Shown here one piece after another: positions 1 to 5,709 of a stretch of 5,709 bases of DNA. Both the position numbers and the translations under genes were made by a program. The stretch covers positions 1-5,709 of the forward strand of contig JAMORM010000106.1 of the NCBI GenBank assembly GCA_027063585.1, written 5' to 3'. This stretch comes from Sulfurimonas sp. (GTDB taxonomy: Bacteria; Campylobacterota; Campylobacteria; Campylobacterales; Sulfurimonadaceae). The notes below the pieces were generated by a model. That model saw only the letters and a list, made by a program, of their open reading frames with translations. It ran no database searches and had not been told where the DNA came from. Each line of letters opens with the position of its first letter. Position 1 is the first letter of the stretch.

Positions 1-518
1 TCATTTTCACTGATTACAAAAACATTTTTTTTGCTGTATCCCATCATATTTGCCATCATATTTGTAGGAATCTGCTCTAAGGCATTGTTATAATCCGTAA
101 CAGCTTGGTTGTATGCCCGACGTGCCGCAGAGATTTGTGCTTCAACTTCATTCAACGAATGTTGCAGGTGCAGAACATTTTCATTTGCTTTAAGCTCTGG
201 GTAGTTCTCAACCGCAATCATAATTGAGCCAAGAGCAGAACTCATTTTTTCATCTAAATCAATTTTCTCTTTGTCACTTAAATTTGTTTTATTTGCCTGT
301 GCACGCAGTTTGGTTATATCTTGAAGGATGGACTTTTCATGCTGCATATATTTACTGACAGACGCAACAAGATTGGGTATCAAATCATAACGTTTCTTTA
401 AGAGTGTATCTACTGAAGCAAAAATATTTTCAACCTGATTTTTCTTTGCTACGAGTGAATTGTACATAAGCACTAAAATTATAGTAAGTACAATGAGAAT
501 GATAAGTGGTGTGGACAT
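1..518 (-). CDS. lemA: LemA family membrane-anchored protein, 3' end cut by window edge
   Basis: The minus-strand frame from ATG at 518-516 stays open to the left edge: 172 complete codons, with the last ones missing. Residues 4-18 form one hydrophobic N-terminal membrane helix. The rest is a helical soluble domain, probably outside the cytoplasmic membrane. Diagnostic LemA features are an Asn-Ser-Leu-Val segment after the helix, the stretch RYDLIPNLV at residues 43-51, a His-Glu pair at 60-61, and a late RRAYNQAVTDYN segment followed by Ile-Pro and a Met-rich stretch. LemA proteins are usually about 185-200 residues, so little is lost. The start is fixed by a strong AAGGAGA six bases upstream. 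The gene follows the FAD oxidoreductase gene by 37 bases with no visible terminator, so it is probably cotranscribed. The biochemical role of LemA is not established. Family assignment is confident; function is not inferred. Confidence 0.9.
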   Translation of the reverse strand, partial: MSTPLIILIVLTIILVLMYNSLVAKKNQVENIFASVDTLLKKRYDLIPNLVASVSKYMQHEKSILQDITKLRAQANKTNLSDKEKIDLDEKMSSALGSIMIAVENYPELKANENVLHLQHSLNEVEAQISAARRAYNQAVTDYNNALEQIPTNMMANMMGYSKKNVFVISEN

Positions 519-524
519 AAAAGC

Positions 525-531
525 TCTCCTT
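525..531 (-). promoter_or_regulatory. Shine-Dalgarno site for lemA
   Basis: AAGGAGA on the minus strand lies six bases before the ATG at 518. It is the strongest ribosome-binding site in the window and decides the lemA start. It suggests independent ribosome loading rather than coupling to the upstream gene. Confidence 0.85.
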
Positions 532-555
532 TAAGATAGTTTATCTGTTTATGTT

Positions 556-1743
556 TTAATCTGTGCTTATAGCTTTTGCAGCGGCATATCCGCTTGCCCA
601 GGCAAAAGCAAAATTATAACCCCCGCGTTTGCCGACAACATCCAGACATTCACCGATAAAGTAGAGATTTTTCTTCTTTTTTGACTCAAAAGTTTTTTCA
701 TTTACTTCAAGAGTATTTATGCCGCCGCCGCTTACTTCGGCATGACGAAATCCATGTGTATCTGTCACTTCAAATCGCCAGTTAAGCATAAGATTTGCTA
801 TTTTTTTTGAAAATTTTGTATCTATGTTTTTACTCTCAGGGTTTACATGTAACTCCTGCAAAATACCGTGCGCTATTTTTAAGGGAACCAAGCCGACGAG
901 TATGTCTAAAAGAGTAAAGGCAGGCATATTTTTCTTTACATGTAATAGATGGGCAGAGAGCTTTTGTGCTGTAAATTCAGGAAGCAGATTGATGGAGATA
1001 TCAACGGCCCCATACTCTAAAAGTGCTTGAGCGGCACGCTGGGAAATATCTAAAATGGCAAAACCCGAAACTCCGTAGTTTGTAAAGAGAACATCTCCGC
1101 TTATTGTTGTCTCTTTTTGATGGTTAATCAACAGCGTAACTTCGGCATTGAGTTTGGCTCCGCTCATTTTATGGGCTGTTTTTGATGAGAGATGTAGTTG
1201 TACCAAAGAAGGATAAGCCTCAATAACAGTGTGTCCGAAAGTTTTGGCAAACTCTTCGGCATCGGCATTGCCTCCCAAATGAGACGCAGCACGTGAACCG
1301 CTCGCGACTACGACACTGTCATAGCTGTTTGTCAGTTTTTTTATATCTGTAATTTTATGTTCCGTATGAAAAATGACACCGAGAGTGTGCGCATATTCTT
1401 GGAAAATTTTGGCAACACTTTTGGCTTCATTGCTCAGTGGGTAGGCTCTGCCGTCATCTGTTACATGTAACAGCAGCCCGATAGATGCCGTGAATTTTTC
1501 AAACTCTTTAAATCCGAAGGTATTGATGGCGTACTCTACAAAGCTTGGATTTTGAGAGAAAAAATCATTGGCACTGATATTTTTATTTGTAATATTACAG
1601 CGTCCGTTTCCTGAGACGAGAATCTTTTTTGCCGGTTTTGTATTTTGTTCATAGAGCGTTACATGTAAGCCTGCTTTTGCACAAAAGATGGCACATAAAA
1701 GCCCCGAAGCTCCACCGCCGATAATAGCTACCGTTTTTGCCAT
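556..1743 (-). CDS. NAD(P)/FAD-dependent oxidoreductase, HI0933/BaiN (YhiN) family
   Basis: A complete 395-residue cytoplasmic flavoprotein of normal family length. The N-terminal Rossmann motif GGGASG is at residues 9-14, with the acidic residue E32 at the end of the second strand, as expected for FAD ribose binding. The family signature SGNGRCNITN is at 44-53. A YPLS segment at 101-104, LFTNYGVSG at 219-227, SGGG at 338-341 and a C-terminal IGECLDVVGKRGGYN at 363-377 complete the FAD fold of the PF03486 family. The ATG shares one base with the mutS2 stop codon (TGATG) and has no clear Shine-Dalgarno sequence, so translation is probably coupled to mutS2. The substrate is unknown: a clostridial member (BaiN) is linked to bile-acid reduction, but that role should not be carried over to this organism. 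The gene carries four identical TTACATGTAA palindromes, all encoding Leu-His-Val. Confidence 0.92.
   Translation of the reverse strand: MAKTVAIIGGGASGLLCAIFCAKAGLHVTLYEQNTKPAKKILVSGNGRCNITNKNISANDFFSQNPSFVEYAINTFGFKEFEKFTASIGLLLHVTDDGRAYPLSNEAKSVAKIFQEYAHTLGVIFHTEHKITDIKKLTNSYDSVVVASGSRAASHLGGNADAEEFAKTFGHTVIEAYPSLVQLHLSSKTAHKMSGAKLNAEVTLLINHQKETTISGDVLFTNYGVSGFAILDISQRAAQALLEYGAVDISINLLPEFTAQKLSAHLLHVKKNMPAFTLLDILVGLVPLKIAHGILQELHVNPESKNIDTKFSKKIANLMLNWRFEVTDTHGFRHAEVSGGGINTLEVNEKTFESKKKKNLYFIGECLDVVGKRGGYNFAFAWASGYAAAKAISTD
843..852. repeat. TTACATGTAA palindrome, copy 1
   Basis: Perfect 10-bp palindrome inside the FAD oxidoreductase gene. It encodes L298-H299-V300 plus the first base of the Asn codon. 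Confidence 0.85.
936..945. repeat. TTACATGTAA palindrome, copy 2
   Basis: Perfect 10-bp palindrome inside the FAD oxidoreductase gene. It encodes L267-H268-V269 plus the first base of the Lys codon, 93 bases from copy 1. Confidence 0.85.
1458..1473. repeat. TTACATGTAA palindrome, copy 3, extended to 16 bp
   Basis: The 10-bp core is at 1461-1470. Flanking CTG and CAG extend it to a perfect 16-bp palindrome. It encodes L92-H93-V94 and the start of a Thr codon in the oxidoreductase. Confidence 0.85.
1659..1668. repeat. TTACATGTAA palindrome, copy 4
   Basis: Perfect 10-bp palindrome encoding L26-H27-V28 and the start of a Thr codon, close to the 5' end of the oxidoreductase gene. Confidence 0.85.
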
Positions 1744-3962
1744 CAGAGTGTCACAATCTTAGCCCCGAATCCGCCGAGGTGTTGGGGTGCATCTTCAAAC
1801 TTTTTGACACGCGGGTGTTGTTTTAAAAACTCTTTGACGGCATAAGAGAGTTTTCCCGTGCCTATACCGTGATAGACAATGACTTCATCCCAGCCGTTTA
1901 TCAGGGCATCACTTAAAAATTTGTCTAAAACCTCACAGGCTTCATCGGCCCGTAATCCGTGCAAGTCGCATTTGAGTCCTGCTTTTTTCTCTACCTGTAC
2001 GTTGAGGTTTGTTGTGGGCTTTTGCTTGATGATTTGTGTATGTTTGAGATGTTTTGTTTTGACACGTACTCGCATACCGTCAACTTCTATAGTTGCCTCG
2101 TTTTTGCCTTTCATGGAGACTATCGTCCCTTTTTGAGAGTGGTATTTTACTTTGTCTCCGATTTTGAATTCTATATCTCTTTTGTCTTCTTTTTGTGTCT
2201 GTTTCGGCAGTTTTTTGTTTGCTTTGTTCATCGCCCGATGAATTGCTTTTATATCGCCTGCGCGTGCCGCATTTTTTGCTTCGTTGATAGCTACATCATA
2301 AGAGTGTTTCAGTAGTGCTTTTTGCTCTTCTAATTCACGTAAAAGTTGCTCTTTTTGTTCTTTAAGGGCATGCTCTTTTTTATGGATTTCATCAAGCTTT
2401 TCGTCAACTTTTTTATGTTTTTGCTTGAGTTCACGCTCAAGCTGTGAGCCGCGTTCAATCAAGAGTGAAAGTTTTTCGGAATTATCGCCGTAGACTTTTT
2501 TTGCTTCATTTACGATAGTATTTGAGATGCCGTAACGGCTTGCCGTCTCAAAAGCATAACTCTTTCCTATGATGCCTTGCATAAATTCATAGGTGGGTTT
2601 TCGTTGTTCTTCATCATAAATCGCAGCCATCAGTTCTACATCATCTCTATCTGCCATCAGTGCTGCAAGGCGTTTATGGTGGGTTGTTACGACTACTTTC
2701 TGCCCGCGTTTGATTAAATCGTCAAGTATGACTTTAAAAAGCGCTGCCGCTTCATCGGAGTCCGTACCGAGTTCTATTTCATCCACACCGATAAGTGCTG
2801 ATTTATACTCAAATATACGTGAAAATTGCTGCATTCTTCCCGCAAAAGTAGAGATGTCGTTTTTGACATTTTGAGGGTCGTCTATAATGGCTTGTATTGC
2901 TTTAAAACTGCCTATATGGGATTTCGTCTCATTGAGCTTCATCGGTATAATGTACTTTGCCATAAATGCAGAAGCCAATATGGATTTTAAAAGCATCGTT
3001 TTTCCGCCGGCATTGACACCCGTAACCATTAAAATATTTTTAGAAAAGTCAACATTGATTGGTTTTGCATGGTGCAGGGCAGGGTGTATGAAATCACTCA
3101 GTACTATTTTTGAATCTTTTTTACTTTTGATTAGCTGTAAATCTTTACTTTTTGCAAAGAGTACACGTGCCTGATAGTTGTCAAACTTTGTAAATTCTTT
3201 ATCTATAAAGTTGATAAAAGGCTGCAATTCATAGAGCTTTTTTGAAAACTCTTTTGCATATTCGTAAAATATTGTTTCGCGTTCTTGCTCTATATAGCGT
3301 ATCTGTTCTTTTGATTTTAAGACACTGTCGGGAGCAACATAGAAAAAACCACCCGTACTTCTACCGAGAATTGCCCCTTTGAGTACATGGTTAAATCCCC
3401 CACGCACAAGCAGACACTCTTCATTATTCATAAAGTGAATTTGTGTATCTACTAGATAACCGGCTAGTTTGGAGCTAGACATCATTCTTTTAAGTGCACC
3501 TGAGATGTTGTTTTTATGTTCGGCTATTCTTTGTGAGAGTCTAAAAAGATTTTCATCTAAATTCTCCTCAAATTTTCCGTCATGCGTAAAATACTTTTCT
3601 ATCTCTAAAAAAGTTTCGGGAATAATGAACCTCTCCATCCATTCCCCGATTAAGCCCTCAAGTTCTCGGTTTTTAAAATAACGAAAATAGCGCACAATTT
3701 TTACTATTTCAAATATTTGTTCAAAGTTCAAAACACCGTGTTTTTTCAGATGCCCTTTAATGTCAAAAAAATCGACAACTTTAGGCGGTGCTTTAAACTC
3801 AAGCTTGTCCAGCTCTTTTATATAGCGAAAATGAAGTTCCTGATCGCCTTCGATATACAAAGAGTGCACACGGGAAAAGAAGCTTTGAAACTGTTCTATA
3901 TGAGCATCTAAGTCAAGCTGATGAATGAGTGTTTGGATTTTTGAGATTTTATCTGTTTTCAT
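1743..3962 (-). CDS. mutS2: Endonuclease MutS2
   Basis: A complete 739-residue protein with the whole MutS2 domain order. Residues 1-300 are the MutS-like core and lever region. The ABC-type ATPase has Walker A GVNAGGKT at 315-322, the STFAGRMQQ segment at 371-379, Walker B with D394-E395 followed by LGTDSDEAAAL, and the H-loop TTHH at 426-429. A charged coiled-coil linker spans about 490-580. A small KOW-like beta segment lies at 602-640. The C-terminal Smr domain (662-739) has D666-L-H-G and HGIGTG at 698-703. MutS2 lacks the mismatch-recognition domain of MutS. In Helicobacter pylori it limits recombination and acts in oxidative DNA damage; in Bacillus subtilis it acts on collided ribosomes. 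Which role applies here cannot be told from the sequence. The start is the first in-frame ATG after a good promoter, although its Shine-Dalgarno sequence is weak. The stop overlaps the next gene by one base. Confidence 0.96.
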   Translation of the reverse strand: MKTDKISKIQTLIHQLDLDAHIEQFQSFFSRVHSLYIEGDQELHFRYIKELDKLEFKAPPKVVDFFDIKGHLKKHGVLNFEQIFEIVKIVRYFRYFKNRELEGLIGEWMERFIIPETFLEIEKYFTHDGKFEENLDENLFRLSQRIAEHKNNISGALKRMMSSSKLAGYLVDTQIHFMNNEECLLVRGGFNHVLKGAILGRSTGGFFYVAPDSVLKSKEQIRYIEQERETIFYEYAKEFSKKLYELQPFINFIDKEFTKFDNYQARVLFAKSKDLQLIKSKKDSKIVLSDFIHPALHHAKPINVDFSKNILMVTGVNAGGKTMLLKSILASAFMAKYIIPMKLNETKSHIGSFKAIQAIIDDPQNVKNDISTFAGRMQQFSRIFEYKSALIGVDEIELGTDSDEAAALFKVILDDLIKRGQKVVVTTHHKRLAALMADRDDVELMAAIYDEEQRKPTYEFMQGIIGKSYAFETASRYGISNTIVNEAKKVYGDNSEKLSLLIERGSQLERELKQKHKKVDEKLDEIHKKEHALKEQKEQLLRELEEQKALLKHSYDVAINEAKNAARAGDIKAIHRAMNKANKKLPKQTQKEDKRDIEFKIGDKVKYHSQKGTIVSMKGKNEATIEVDGMRVRVKTKHLKHTQIIKQKPTTNLNVQVEKKAGLKCDLHGLRADEACEVLDKFLSDALINGWDEVIVYHGIGTGKLSYAVKEFLKQHPRVKKFEDAPQHLGGFGAKIVTL

Positions 3963-4030
3963 ATCTGTTAATTATTCTTTGATTTTAGTGTAAGTGTAAT
4001 AATGTGTATAAATTATTAAAAATTAAGTAG

Positions 4031-4039
4031 ATTATAACA
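4031..4039 (-). promoter_or_regulatory. Candidate extended -10 promoter for mutS2
   Basis: The minus strand reads TGTTATAAT, a perfect extended -10 element (TGnTATAAT). No TTGACA-like -35 lies 16-18 bases upstream; that position is an A-run. This fits Campylobacterota housekeeping promoters, which often lack a recognisable -35. Transcription would start near 4024, giving a leader of about 60 bases before the mutS2 ATG. The element lies about 20 bases outside the repeat array, so mutS2 can be expressed independently of the murC part of the cluster. Confidence 0.55.
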
Positions 4040-4060
4040 TAAAAATTATGATGTTTTTTC

Positions 4061-4084
4061 GGAACCCAGGTTTTAACCTGGGCT
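4061..4084 (+). repeat. REP-like unit 1
   Basis: GGAA at 4061-4064, then a perfect 8-bp stem (4065-4072 with 4075-4082) and a TT loop, ending in CT. First half of an inverted pair with unit 2. Confidence 0.85.
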
Positions 4085-4105
4085 GAATTGCTTGAAAGCT
4101 TAAGA

Positions 4106-4128
4106 GGCAAGGTTAAAACCTTGCTTCC
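4106..4128 (-). repeat. REP-like unit 2 (inverted)
   Basis: Read on the minus strand, this is GGAA followed by arm GCAAGGTT, a TT loop and a perfect return arm (4107-4114 with 4117-4124). Two stem pairs differ from unit 1 in a compensated way. Confidence 0.82.
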
Positions 4129-4155
4129 GAAGAGCAAGAAACCTGTACTGTTTGA

Positions 4156-4177
4156 GGAACCCAGGTTTCAACCTCAA
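4156..4177 (+). repeat. REP-like unit 3, return arm truncated
   Basis: GGAA and arm CCCAGGTT match units 1 and 6, and the loop is TC as in unit 6. The return arm stops after AACCT and continues as CAA instead of GGG, leaving five inner base pairs. An alternative outer pairing TGAGG/CCTCA (4153-4157 with 4172-4176) is possible. Confidence 0.7.
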
Positions 4178-4202
4178 TGCCATTAAGTTAAACGGCTTTT
4201 TC

Positions 4203-4226
4203 GGAACCCGTACTTTAGTGCGGGCT
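4203..4226 (+). repeat. REP-like unit 4, divergent stem
   Basis: GGAA and the outer CCC/GGG pairs are kept. The inner stem is GTACT with AGTGC instead of AGGTT with AACCT. Eight pairs form, one a G-T wobble (4207-4214 with 4217-4224), with a TT loop. This is the clearest compensatory change in the array. Confidence 0.82.
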
Positions 4227-4230
4227 TTGT

Positions 4231-4242
4231 GTCTTTAAAGAC
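4231..4242. repeat. 12-bp palindrome between units 4 and 5
   Basis: GTCTTTAAAGAC is a perfect palindrome at the centre of the unit 4/unit 5 inverted pair, so the pair can fold as a longer cruciform. The unit 1/2 spacer has only an imperfect counterpart around AAGCTT. Confidence 0.75.
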
Positions 4243-4245
4243 GAA

Positions 4246-4269
4246 GGCCTAGGTTAAAACCTAGGTTCC
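4246..4269 (-). repeat. REP-like unit 5 (inverted)
   Basis: Read on the minus strand, this is GGAA, arm CCTAGGTT, TT loop and a perfect 8-bp return arm (4248-4255 with 4258-4265). Inverted partner of unit 4. Confidence 0.83.
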
Positions 4270-4301
4270 GAGAAAACATCAAGCTTTTTTCTTAACTTAA
4301 T

Positions 4302-4325
4302 GGAACCCAGGTTTCAATCTGGGCT
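4302..4325 (+). repeat. REP-like unit 6, overlapping the 5' end of the regulator frame
   Basis: GGAA, arm CCCAGGTT, TC loop and return arm AATCTGGG give eight pairs with one G-T wobble (4306-4313 with 4316-4323). It lies inside the longest version of the XRE reading frame, directly upstream of the preferred start at 4330. Confidence 0.82.
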
Positions 4326-4329
4326 GAGA

Positions 4330-4566
4330 ATGGCAATAAGTTGCGTTTTAGCGTTAAAAACCTATAAAAATGTTGCTGAAAATGTCAAAAGAATTAGAAA
4401 AGAGATGGGTGTTACACAGTTGGATTTAGCACTGACAATCGGTCATAAATCTATGAGTACGATTGCAAAAATAGAAGCTTCTTTGGAAAATAAACATTAT
4501 AATTTAGAACATATTTATAAAATAAGTAAAGCCTTAAATGTTGATATTTGCGAGTTTTTTAAATAG
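4330..4566 (+). CDS. Small XRE/Cro-CI-type helix-turn-helix regulator
   Basis: The preferred product is 78 residues, nearly all one HTH_3 domain. Helix 1 is in VAENVKRIRKEMG, helix 2 in TQLDLALTIG, the recognition region is HKSMSTIAKIEA, and helices 4-5 are in HYNLEHIYKISKALNVDICEFF. This is a DNA-binding protein, presumably a dimeric repressor; its target is unknown. The frame also opens at an ATG at 4300, but the ten extra residues are a translation of repeat unit 6, so 4330 is preferred. Neither start has a good Shine-Dalgarno sequence and no convincing promoter was found. The domain seems to begin about ten residues after the 4330 start, so the natural 5' end may have been lost to the repeats. 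It is the only plus-strand gene here, convergent with the membrane protein gene and ending seven bases from it. No toxin, methylase or other partner adjoins it. Confidence 0.78.
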   Translation: MAISCVLALKTYKNVAENVKRIRKEMGVTQLDLALTIGHKSMSTIAKIEASLENKHYNLEHIYKISKALNVDICEFFK

Positions 4567-4573
4567 TAACAAT

Positions 4574-4903
4574 CTATTCACAAGTAGCTGCACTAATCAT
4601 CTCCGCATAGTGCGGCGTATTTTCTTTGCCTATAAAGGTATACGTTCCTACACTTAATGAATATATGCTTGAATTAACATCGACACCGTTACATGTAACC
4701 GTTTTACCTTGTTCATATTTTATTATCGTTTTGAGCATTTTTTCTCTTTGAGTCTGATTGTATTTGTTGTATGCTACTGCACCGAGTATAATTACCAAAA
4801 GTATAATCCCAATAAAAAATTTTTGAGATTTGTTCAGTTCCGTAAAATAATGCAGGGCTGCAAATAACAGTGCTACAATAACTAAACCGTATATGTAGGC
4901 CAT
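4574..4903 (-). CDS. Small two-helix membrane protein, function unknown
   Basis: A complete 109-residue protein that I do not recognise as a named family. Two hydrophobic helices lie at about residues 2-20 and 29-46, joined by a short polar loop with two lysines. A basic stretch (K47, R53, K55, K58) follows, then a soluble tail of about 50 residues with cysteines C71 and C108. The positive charges after helix 2 suggest both ends are cytoplasmic, but the signal is not strong. The ATG shares its A with the murC TAA stop (TAATG), and an AGAGGA lies eight bases upstream inside murC, so it is translated directly after murC. The position suggests an envelope-related role; this is inference only. 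It carries one TTACATGTAA palindrome (4689-4698). Confidence 0.85.
   Translation of the reverse strand: MAYIYGLVIVALLFAALHYFTELNKSQKFFIGIILLVIILGAVAYNKYNQTQREKMLKTIIKYEQGKTVTCNGVDVNSSIYSLSVGTYTFIGKENTPHYAEMISAATCE
4688..4699. repeat. TTACATGTAA palindrome, copy 5, extended to 12 bp
   Basis: The core at 4689-4698 is flanked by G and C, giving a perfect 12-bp palindrome. Here it lies across Val-Thr-Cys-Asn codons, a different frame from the four copies in the oxidoreductase gene. Confidence 0.85.
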
Positions 4904-5709
4904 TATGCGGTTCCTCTGATTTGGTAGGTAATGTCACCGGCACCAAAACCGATAATAAGTCCTTTATCAAGTGTTTCTAAGTCTTTGTCGTCTTTTATAA
5001 CTGTTATGGTATTGTTAGCGCGTGAGATTTTATCTGCCATTGTAAGGTTATAGTCTTTAAAGCTCTCTTTGAAATCTATATCACGCGGTGTCTCTCCGGC
5101 GGACCAAACAGGTAAAATTATGAGTTCGGCTGCTCCGTCAAAACATTTTATAAATTCTTCTAAATTATCAATGGTTCTTGAGTATTTGTGTGGTTGCCAA
5201 ATAGCTGTAATCTTGTCAAAACCTTTGAGCAAGGCATACTCTTTGAGCGATTCAAAAGTGGCTTTTATTTCGGTAGGGTGATGACCGTAGTCATCAATAA
5301 TGACGCTGTCATGCTCAAAACCGACAATATCAAAACGTTTTTTAATCCCTTTAAAGTTTAAAATATTTTTTCGTATATCTTCAATACACATAGACTCATG
5401 GGCTGCAAGTATAGCAAGGGCAGCGTCAATGGCAATGTGTTTGCCGAATCCCCAAACATCAAAACTGCCAAAATCACGAAATGTAAACCGTGTATGCGGT
5501 TCATTGTTAATGAGTACAAATTCAATGTCTTGAATATCTCTGCTCGGATAAAGCCATTCGGCATCCACCTTATCAACAAGGGTAGATAAAAAAGGGTCTT
5601 CTGCATTGAGAACTTTATGCGTAGCAAGATTTATAAAAGTTTTGTAAGAGTCATAAAATCTTTCATAATTATAATCATAATACTCCATATGTTCGGGTTC
5701 TGCATTGAT
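4903..5709 (-). CDS. murC: UDP-N-acetylmuramate--L-alanine ligase, N-terminus cut by window edge
   Basis: The frame is open from the right edge to the TAA at 4905-4903, giving 268 residues. The ATG at 5688 is internal: the seven codons before it read INAEPEH and belong to the conserved EPEHMEYYD segment. MurC is usually about 430-440 residues, so roughly the first 170 are missing, including the Rossmann domain and the ATP P-loop. Counting from that internal Met, the visible parts are GKHIAIDAALAILAA at 82-96 (end of the central ATPase domain), KKRFDIVG at 116-123, DDYGHHPTEI at 132-141, QPHKYSRT at 165-172, SAGE at 196-199 and GAGDI at 249-253. These are ligase C-terminal domain motifs specific to MurC. 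The enzyme adds L-Ala to UDP-MurNAc in the cytoplasm, the first step of peptidoglycan stem-peptide synthesis. Downstream it is coupled to a small membrane protein by a one-base overlap. Confidence 0.96.
   Translation of the reverse strand: MNAEPEHMEYYDYNYERFYDSYKTFINLATHKVLNAEDPFLSTLVDKVDAEWLYPSRDIQDIEFVLINNEPHTRFTFRDFGSFDVWGFGKHIAIDAALAILAAHESMCIEDIRKNILNFKGIKKRFDIVGFEHDSVIIDDYGHHPTEIKATFESLKEYALLKGFDKITAIWQPHKYSRTIDNLEEFIKCFDGAAELIILPVWSAGETPRDIDFKESFKDYNLTMADKISRANNTITVIKDDKDLETLDKGLIIGFGAGDITYQIRGTA
4912..4917 (-). promoter_or_regulatory. Shine-Dalgarno site for the small membrane protein, inside murC
   Basis: AGAGGA on the minus strand, eight bases before the ATG at 4903, lies within the last codons of murC. 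It supports the overlapping start and reinitiation after murC. Confidence 0.7.

Follow-up and report, generated by a model that had tools for sequence, protein, structure and literature searches.

Dispersed GGAA-guide REP hairpins in Sulfurimonas and their probable RAYT partner

Repetitive extragenic palindromes (REPs) that carry the tetranucleotide GTAG or GTGG and are accompanied by a REP-associated tyrosine transposase (RAYT) are among the closest described systems to the repeats reported here, which were found in a stretch of 5,709 nucleotides of Sulfurimonas sp. DNA (NCBI GenBank assembly GCA_027063585.1, contig JAMORM010000106.1, positions 1 to 5,709 of the forward strand; this whole stretch is referred to as the window). 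According to the parts of the literature consulted, the two have in common a tetranucleotide next to an 8-bp palindrome, a TY loop, dispersed copies, a RAYT gene flanked by REPs, and an alternating arrangement as bacterial interspersed mosaic elements (BIMEs). The REP of Haemophilus influenzae (GTAG GGTGGGCT TC AGCCCACC; Nunvar 2010, PMC2817692, available text) has the same geometry as the unit described here. The guide tetranucleotide differs: it is GTAG or GTGG in the classical REPs and GGAA in the window (mostly GGNN in relatives). In the literature examined, it is on GTAG repeats that RAYT cleavage directed by the guide has been elucidated.

The six hairpins of the window very probably belong to a dispersed family of GGAA-guide REPs whose stem has 8 bp and whose loop is two pyrimidines, with units grouped in inverted pairs (REP doublets forming hairpins, REPINs). 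A cognate RAYT, the gene of which lies amid these hairpins in related genomes, likely copies the family as single-stranded DNA. The observation of six hairpins in the initial annotation of the window was confirmed, and its attribution to a RAYT was largely supported. The sequences themselves establish that the family is dispersed and extragenic, that its units form inverted pairs, that the stems covary, that hairpins are linked with RAYT genes and that guides near relatives of this RAYT mostly begin with GG. As far as the searches reach, the guide letters are new, as is a REPIN-carrying miniature inverted-repeat transposable element (MITE) that targets REPs. No literature linking RAYTs with Epsilonproteobacteria, or REPs with Campylobacterota, was found.

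Hairpin units in the window and in the source genome

All six annotated hairpins were located, with units 2 and 5 on the minus strand (Table 1). Five of the six units form 8/8 pairs (G-T allowed) around a TT or TC loop, compared with a mean of 0.31 and a maximum of 2 such hairpins in 500 simulated first-order Markov windows. Six of the eight stem positions had been annotated as covarying, and both sides were indeed found to be changed in 6/8 pairs across the six units (shuffles: 1.2; six reached in 0/500), the innermost T-A pair being invariant. Paired cells across the units amounted to 93.8% (named-structure count), and the single-stranded DNA fold of the region was 7.85 standard deviations better than that of shuffles. 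An Rfam scan of the window gave 0 matches.

Table 1. Coordinates of the features in the window and, in the last two rows, at further loci.
Feature	Position	Strand	Description
Unit 1	4061-4082	plus	GGAA guide, 8-bp stem CCCAGGTT/AACCTGGG, loop TT
Unit 2	4107-4128	minus	GGAA GCAAGGTT-TT-AACCTTGC; inverted pair (REPIN) with unit 1, 46 nt start to start
Unit 3	4156-4177	plus	Return arm broken
Unit 3 remnant	4156-4174	plus	Guide, left arm, loop and 5 nt of the target hairpin's return arm
Left 12-bp direct repeat	4163-4174	plus	AGGTTTCAACCT, hairpin tip, target duplication
MITE	4175-4308		134 bp; left terminal repeat 4175-4192 CAATGCCATTAAGTTAAA, right terminal repeat 4291-4308 CTTAACTTAATGGAACCC
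Unit 4	4203-4224	plus	GGAA CCCGTACT-TT-AGTGCGGG; within MITE
Unit 5	4248-4269	minus	GGAA CCTAGGTT-TT-AACCTAGG; REPIN with unit 4 (45 nt), within MITE
Unit 6	4302-4323	plus	GGAA CCCAGGTT-TC-AATCTGGG; right half of target hairpin
Right 12-bp direct repeat	4309-4320	plus	AGGTTTCAATCT; 1 mismatch to 4163-4174
mutS2-like gene	1743-3962	minus	Identity by reading of the translation; its start borders the hairpin region
Small helix-turn-helix-like open reading frame	4300-4566	plus	Identity by reading of the translation; other border of the hairpins
Cut RAYT	L071 (G000:C181) 1-122		Interrupting DNA begins AAGTGCCAGACC; repeated at C112, C170, C162
GAAAAAAATTTAG inserts	L061 (G000:C6) about 6196-6245 and 2716-2740; L069 about 880-930		

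The source genome assembly comprises 1.53 Mb in 247 contigs and is 73.4% complete. The check by covariance model that the initial annotation had suggested revealed copies well beyond this locus: at least 105 matches to a model of the unit were obtained (a lower bound, 150 of 650 candidates having been scored), and a generic hairpin pattern gave 70 exact matches on 34 contigs (reversed control: 0). The loci of this genome that were examined further had been chosen by the GGAA pattern, so the density of hairpins within them is not meaningful, but their position still is. These loci contain 95 GGAA units of fixed geometry, compared with 0 in the reversed sequence and 0-2 for each of 13 other tetranucleotides; GTAG and GTGG were found once each, and by this count the hairpins are not canonical GTAG/GTGG REPs. 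As had been anticipated, the copies are intergenic, 92 of the 95 units lying outside open reading frames (ORFs) of at least 120 aa, although such ORFs cover 82% of the sequence. Neighbours no more than 250 nt apart are inverted in 50/52 cases, the start-to-start distance of "+-" pairs is 45 or 46 nt in 28/30, and the inverted pairs span about 68 nt; on one contig, pairs form a tandem array with a period of 89 nt. Such alternating, regularly spaced pairs are the REPIN/BIME arrangement. Features by which REPs, BIMEs and REPINs are recognised were present, namely a dispersed extragenic palindrome, inverted regular pairs, a conserved tetranucleotide at the 5' foot and, in relatives, a RAYT flanked by the same repeat.

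That the hairpins are RNA structures (terminators or mRNA stabilisers) kept for that function is very unlikely, although two terminator-like matches were found at 3960-4420 (0.3 in shuffles) and the stems are GC-rich in AT-rich surroundings. Genes are present on both sides of 35 of the 43 hairpin clusters (14 same-strand, 12 divergent, 9 convergent; the other 8 clusters lie at locus edges), so the preference for gene ends that would mark intrinsic terminators is lacking. Neighbouring units alternate in orientation, a terminator has no need of a conserved GGAA on one side of the foot, and the local linkage of hairpins with RAYT genes described below is strong, though genome by genome the hairpins track RAYT loosely.

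The 134-bp element inside one hairpin

The initial annotation had treated the six units as equal, which did not hold. A MITE is inserted in the window and a 12-bp duplication of the hairpin tip flanks it, so that units 3 and 6 together make up a single target hairpin, split by the insertion. The statement that the return arm is broken only in unit 3 was correct as a description, the other five units being fully paired, but the break is the MITE junction and not chance decay. At its right end, the last bases of the element depart from the family sequence GGCATTG, and the guide and first three stem bases of unit 6 lie inside this altered end. The MITE in turn contains a REPIN, made up of units 4 and 5.

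The element is repeated in the source genome. Beyond the break, the arm of unit 3 continues as CAATGCCATTAAG, a junction motif that occurs 15 times in the examined loci (ends, not elements). The 18-bp terminal repeat CAATGCCATTAAGTTAAG was found at 23 ends, and ten copies could be delimited, 8/10 of them exactly 134 bp long. Flanking direct repeats of 12 bp, identical or differing by 1 mismatch, were found for 6/10 copies; for the remainder, the flank is inverted (2/10), cut by a contig end (1) or offset by 4 nt (1). Of the source-genome ends listed, 19/21 abut a hairpin tip in which at least 4/5 pairs form. In a related genome (G138), a 134-bp copy lies outside a hairpin between 11-bp direct repeats (AACCACCCCTT / AACAACCCCTT), which speaks for true transposition. 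The available part of Table 1 of PMC2266710 gives the ends of the IS4 subgroup of insertion sequences (ISs) as -AATR--------WTW---- and their duplications as 10-13 bp; both CAATGCCATTAAGTTAAG and the 12-bp repeat length fit. No autonomous parent with the same ends was found among the 23 source-genome ends or among the ends listed for relatives; at least 59 such ends are present in S. sediminis. A DDE transposase acting in trans would move this 134-bp element with its IS4-like ends.

From these findings it might be supposed that MITEs mobilised by an IS4-like DDE transposase account for all six units, the hairpins being just ends and no RAYT being involved. The presence in the window of a 134-bp MITE with 18-bp terminal repeats and 12-bp duplications that carries two units agrees with this, as do the IS4-subgroup ends and the 10-13 bp repeats on record. 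The explanation is nevertheless highly improbable: the 23 MITE ends are outnumbered by at least 105 hairpins, hairpins that differ considerably in stem and guide flank a Y1 gene across many species, stem covariation is not needed by a MITE, and REPINs without MITE ends adjoin RAYT genes (e.g., at locus L110), which contradicts a MITE-only origin.

Some further observations were made on these sequences. A short sequence with GAAAAAAATTTAG lies inside otherwise intact CCTAGGTT or GCAAGGTT hairpins and constitutes a further small insert in REP stems. The ORF at 4300-4566 has its first ATG just ahead of unit 6, which would make its N-terminus repeat-encoded, and translation may in reality begin at a more internal position. 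The palindrome TTACATGTAA is present in five copies in the window (843, 936, 1461, 1659, 4689), four of them inside the minus-strand ORF 556-1743.

The probable partner transposase and the guide

A Y1_Tnp (PF01797) gene flanked by the same hairpin, as had been predicted from the window, is present in related genomes carrying the repeat. Neither of the two results named in the initial annotation as refuting it was obtained. Among 151 genomes of the bacterial family, a Y1_Tnp match was found in 80 and the hairpin pattern in 22, many of these 22 with a single copy of chance-like letters. A 172-aa Y1 gene in G069 is bracketed by hairpins, hairpins adjoin a 168-aa Y1 gene in G053, and RAYT genes flanked by the same repeat were found at G053, G069, G117, G138, G103 and L149; in G117, G138 and L149 the flanking hairpins include the stem CCCGTACT known from unit 4 of the window. 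The RAYT relatives scored 46 and 39.6 bits with PF01797 (cut-off 23), the match beginning at residue 60, and H89-x-H91 (HUH) and Y147 are conserved. The best match of the predicted fold is the REP-bound RAYT 4er8 (13% identity over the aligned part), which ranks above the IS200/IS605-type chains listed. Thg1 and ribosomal protein S6, which share the strand/helix arrangement in the fold comparison, were not counted as relatives. A PDB sequence search with a single RAYT protein gave no match; a profile of the family alignment A2 gave 4er8 at 1.2e-4 and IS200 2f4f at 2.7e-8. In PHROGs, one unnamed transposase family was matched.

Ordinary IS200/IS605 elements, of which the hairpins would be the ends, share the transposase superfamily (PF01797) and, according to the available text of PMC6006769, the same hairpin-with-guide logic. 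This origin is exceedingly unlikely in view of over a hundred short copies per genome as against one RAYT of the family per RAYT-bearing genome, of inverted pairs of about 68 nt in place of the left and right ends of a gene-bearing element, and of the structural ranking of 4er8 given above.

In the source genome, the PF01797 search gave no match, which is explained by the state of the RAYT: the part present covers residues 1-79 and stops short of most of the Y1 domain. With the G053 protein as query, this piece was found at 82% identity (E 1.3e-41). It follows the same mqnE-like gene (by reading) as in G053, and a GGAA hairpin ends about 35 nt before its start codon. The frame runs into DNA repeated on three other contigs, no more than about 120 nt from the contig end; this DNA (AAGTGCCAGACC), palindromic at C162, is probably another MITE or IS. 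Judged by the same upstream neighbour and the identity, the piece is the orthologue in place, cut in this assembly. The proposal that the hairpins are moved by a RAYT encoded elsewhere in the genome thus stands as regards a linked RAYT in relatives; in the source genome only the cut residues 1-79 were found, and movement by a RAYT is inferred.

Two other Y1 proteins were set apart. A 252-aa Y1 protein at L044 (G069:C94) was rejected as partner, since it stands among many GGGTGTCAGGCAC repeats and belongs to another RAYT type; about 0.9 kb beyond it there is a GGAA hairpin pair. It has a C-terminal extension and resembles RAYTs reported to carry terminal inverted repeats in place of REPs. A different RAYT type (MGRSRYKI..., 176-177 aa) was seen at L120-L128 in other genomes of the family, most with CGTTCCCAC...GGGAATG-type hairpins close to the gene.

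The guide was investigated at RAYT loci collected by a contig scan (86 relatives, best 80 kept) and combined with 11 earlier loci (91 in total, 84 distinct after removal of 7 duplicates). Hosts were Sulfurimonas, Sulfurovum, Malaciobacter, Sulfuricurvum, methanotrophs, Psychromonas, Mariprofundus and others. Hairpins were searched without specification of a guide (8-nt arm, YY loop, inner 7 pairs), a geometry outside which hairpins would be missed. The guide begins with GG in 151 of the 160 hairpins no more than 400 nt from a RAYT (GGAA 69, GGGG 25, GGAG 24, GGAT 12, GGGT 9, GGTA 6, few others). A hairpin within this distance was present at 51/84 loci, with a GG majority in 49/51, and hairpins on both sides within 600 nt were present at 25/84. 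GGAA, annotated as the guide of the family and borne by the 95 units of the source genome, is therefore better described as one member of a mostly GGNN set that is distinct from GTAG/GTGG. At L182, L184, L186, L208, L211, L216 and L218 the hairpins differ in guide (GGAA and GGAG), possibly as the two halves of one REPIN.

In the proposed mechanism, one strand (the lagging-strand template) would carry the folded hairpin to which the RAYT binds; the enzyme would read GG and the last two guide bases beside the foot, its tyrosine would cut nearby, and the inverted pair would then be moved or copied. The stems may drift while staying paired, because the fold and the guide would be what the RAYT reads. 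A correlate in the protein was sought in 376 column-by-class tests, the best of which was the residue after the conserved tryptophan against guide base 3 (G vs A). This residue is acidic at 10/11 loci with G and at 2/39 with A (p 6.7e-8, not corrected for kinship; 50 loci), and a tree-aware test with 1-2 informative pairs was not significant. Four new loci were used as a follow-up (L229, L230, L238, L242; L231, L232 and L233 were left out as repeats of the first set): L242 (Q, GGAA) fits the rule, L229 and L230 (acidic, mostly GGAG) break it, and L238 has no such hairpin. The association did not hold up and is a lead only.

Several observations weigh against copying by a RAYT of this family. 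No intact RAYT is present in the assembled source genome, the frame ending after about 80 residues. With NCBIfam NF047646 (REP_Tyr_transpos), the relatives scored 68.9 and 64.6 bits, under the curated cut-off of 80, yet this was the best family match; by that model they are diverged relatives, and the assignment as RAYT therefore rests on linkage and fold. Among 60 same-genus genomes, where strong family matches, the cut source-genome copy and fragments in G507 were counted as RAYT, 4 have RAYT and at least 5 hairpins, 5 hairpins alone, 5 RAYT alone and 46 neither (Fisher p 0.022). Only 4/9 genomes with at least 5 hairpins hence have a detected RAYT of this family; those without it include G127 (99% complete, 7 hairpins) and G517 (96%, 22 hairpins), and completeness does not exceed 80% in three of the five genomes with hairpins alone. 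The five RAYT genomes with fewer than 5 hairpins comprise one with fragments only and one with a stop in the gene; in at least one of the five, G502, GGAA hairpins at its RAYT were missed by the covariance model, probably owing to the model's fixed T-A tip. No such hairpin was found within 400 nt at 33/84 RAYT loci (some of these genes lie near contig ends), and one RAYT relative, L265 (G500:C91), is accompanied by 11 hairpins with the guide GTAA, which is not GGNN and is one letter from GTAG and one from GGAA. Finally, the guide rule in the available text of PMC8266576 predicts a TT cut for GGAA. When flank dinucleotides were compared with the reverse complement of guide bases 3-4 (18 offsets, 57 locus-guide groups), no general enrichment was found: offset -9 lay beyond all 500 shuffles, -5 was reached by 16/500 and +7 by 39/500, and the offsets nearest guide and foot (-2, 0) were below chance. 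One locus, L188 (GGAT, ATC in front), looks as the rule predicts.

Comparison with described systems

RAYT subclasses 2.6 and 2.4 (groups 5 or 4 of Bertels) are candidates for a family to which the present one might already belong. In that case the GGAA head would stand in a supplementary table of Quentin et al. 2018, and only the host range would be new. This is rather unlikely. In its favour, classes 2.6 and 3 are described in the available text of PMC6006769 as lacking GT[AG]G and having atypical structures, and subclass 2.6 as having a median of 179 aa and the motif NH[LIV]H. Compared by published motifs, neither 2.6 nor 2.4 fully fits: the residue after W is here mostly A, E, D or Q (Q 4/50) as against the WQ given for both in the text seen, the Y motif in alignment A2 is mostly YIKNN[AP] as against YIH[QN]NP for 2.6, and 2.6 is reported there mostly from Bacteroidetes, whereas the present family occurs in Campylobacterota, Gamma- and Zetaproteobacteria. 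GGAA as the start of a word was absent from the main text, as available, of PMC6006769, PMC3733652, PMC8266576, PMC12306157 and PMC2817692, a search whose scope was main text without supplements and which misses GGAA inside longer strings.

A wider scenario is conceivable but doubtful. A RAYT lineage in Campylobacterota and Gamma-/Zetaproteobacteria would have re-written the REP guide into a GGNN series (GGAA, GGAT, GGAG, GGAC, GGGG, GGGT, GGTA, with GTAA as link to GTAG) at fixed stem length and loop, residues next to the conserved tryptophan would covary with the guide and set the new cleavage dinucleotide, and the repeats would also be cargo of REP-targeting IS4-type MITEs, which would leave two transposases of unrelated kinds disseminating one hairpin.

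The GGAA repeats appear to widen the known set of guides beyond the usual GTAG. With stem and loop fixed and the guide varying (GGAA, GGAT, GGAG, GGGG, GGGT, GGTA, GTAA), they offer natural enzyme/substrate pairs for the study of guide reading, with which it could be asked if the cut position depends solely on the guide and by which residues the guide is recognised. The MITE in REP tips, with its REPIN, shows the stacking of two mobile systems and the origin of the broken unit, and annotators of Campylobacterota genomes gain a named repeat.

As in TnpA_REP of E. coli (4er8) and TnpA_REP groups 2 and 3 (PMC8266576, available text), the gene is tied here to a repeat made up of guide and hairpin. 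The predicted HUH Y1 transposase fold is likewise shared with the E. coli protein, in which the residue after the conserved W is Q95 (own counting); it is A in 29 of the 50 members with a guide call here. TnpA_Y1 subclass 2.6 and class 3 (PMC6006769) resemble the present family in having RAYT repeats without GT[AG]G and with copies elsewhere in the genome. The class 3 repeats have CnGA, no GG head is named for either in the text examined, and motif and phylum differ from those found here. The closest parallel to the MITE is ISRm22 of S. meliloti (Tobes and Pareja 2006, PMC1525189), an element of the IS4 family all copies of which, according to the text available, lie in REPs. Both are of IS4 type, insert at the axis of the REP palindrome and are flanked by direct repeats; the present element differs in being 134 bp long and gene-less, in having 12-bp instead of 6-bp repeats, and in itself carrying a REPIN.
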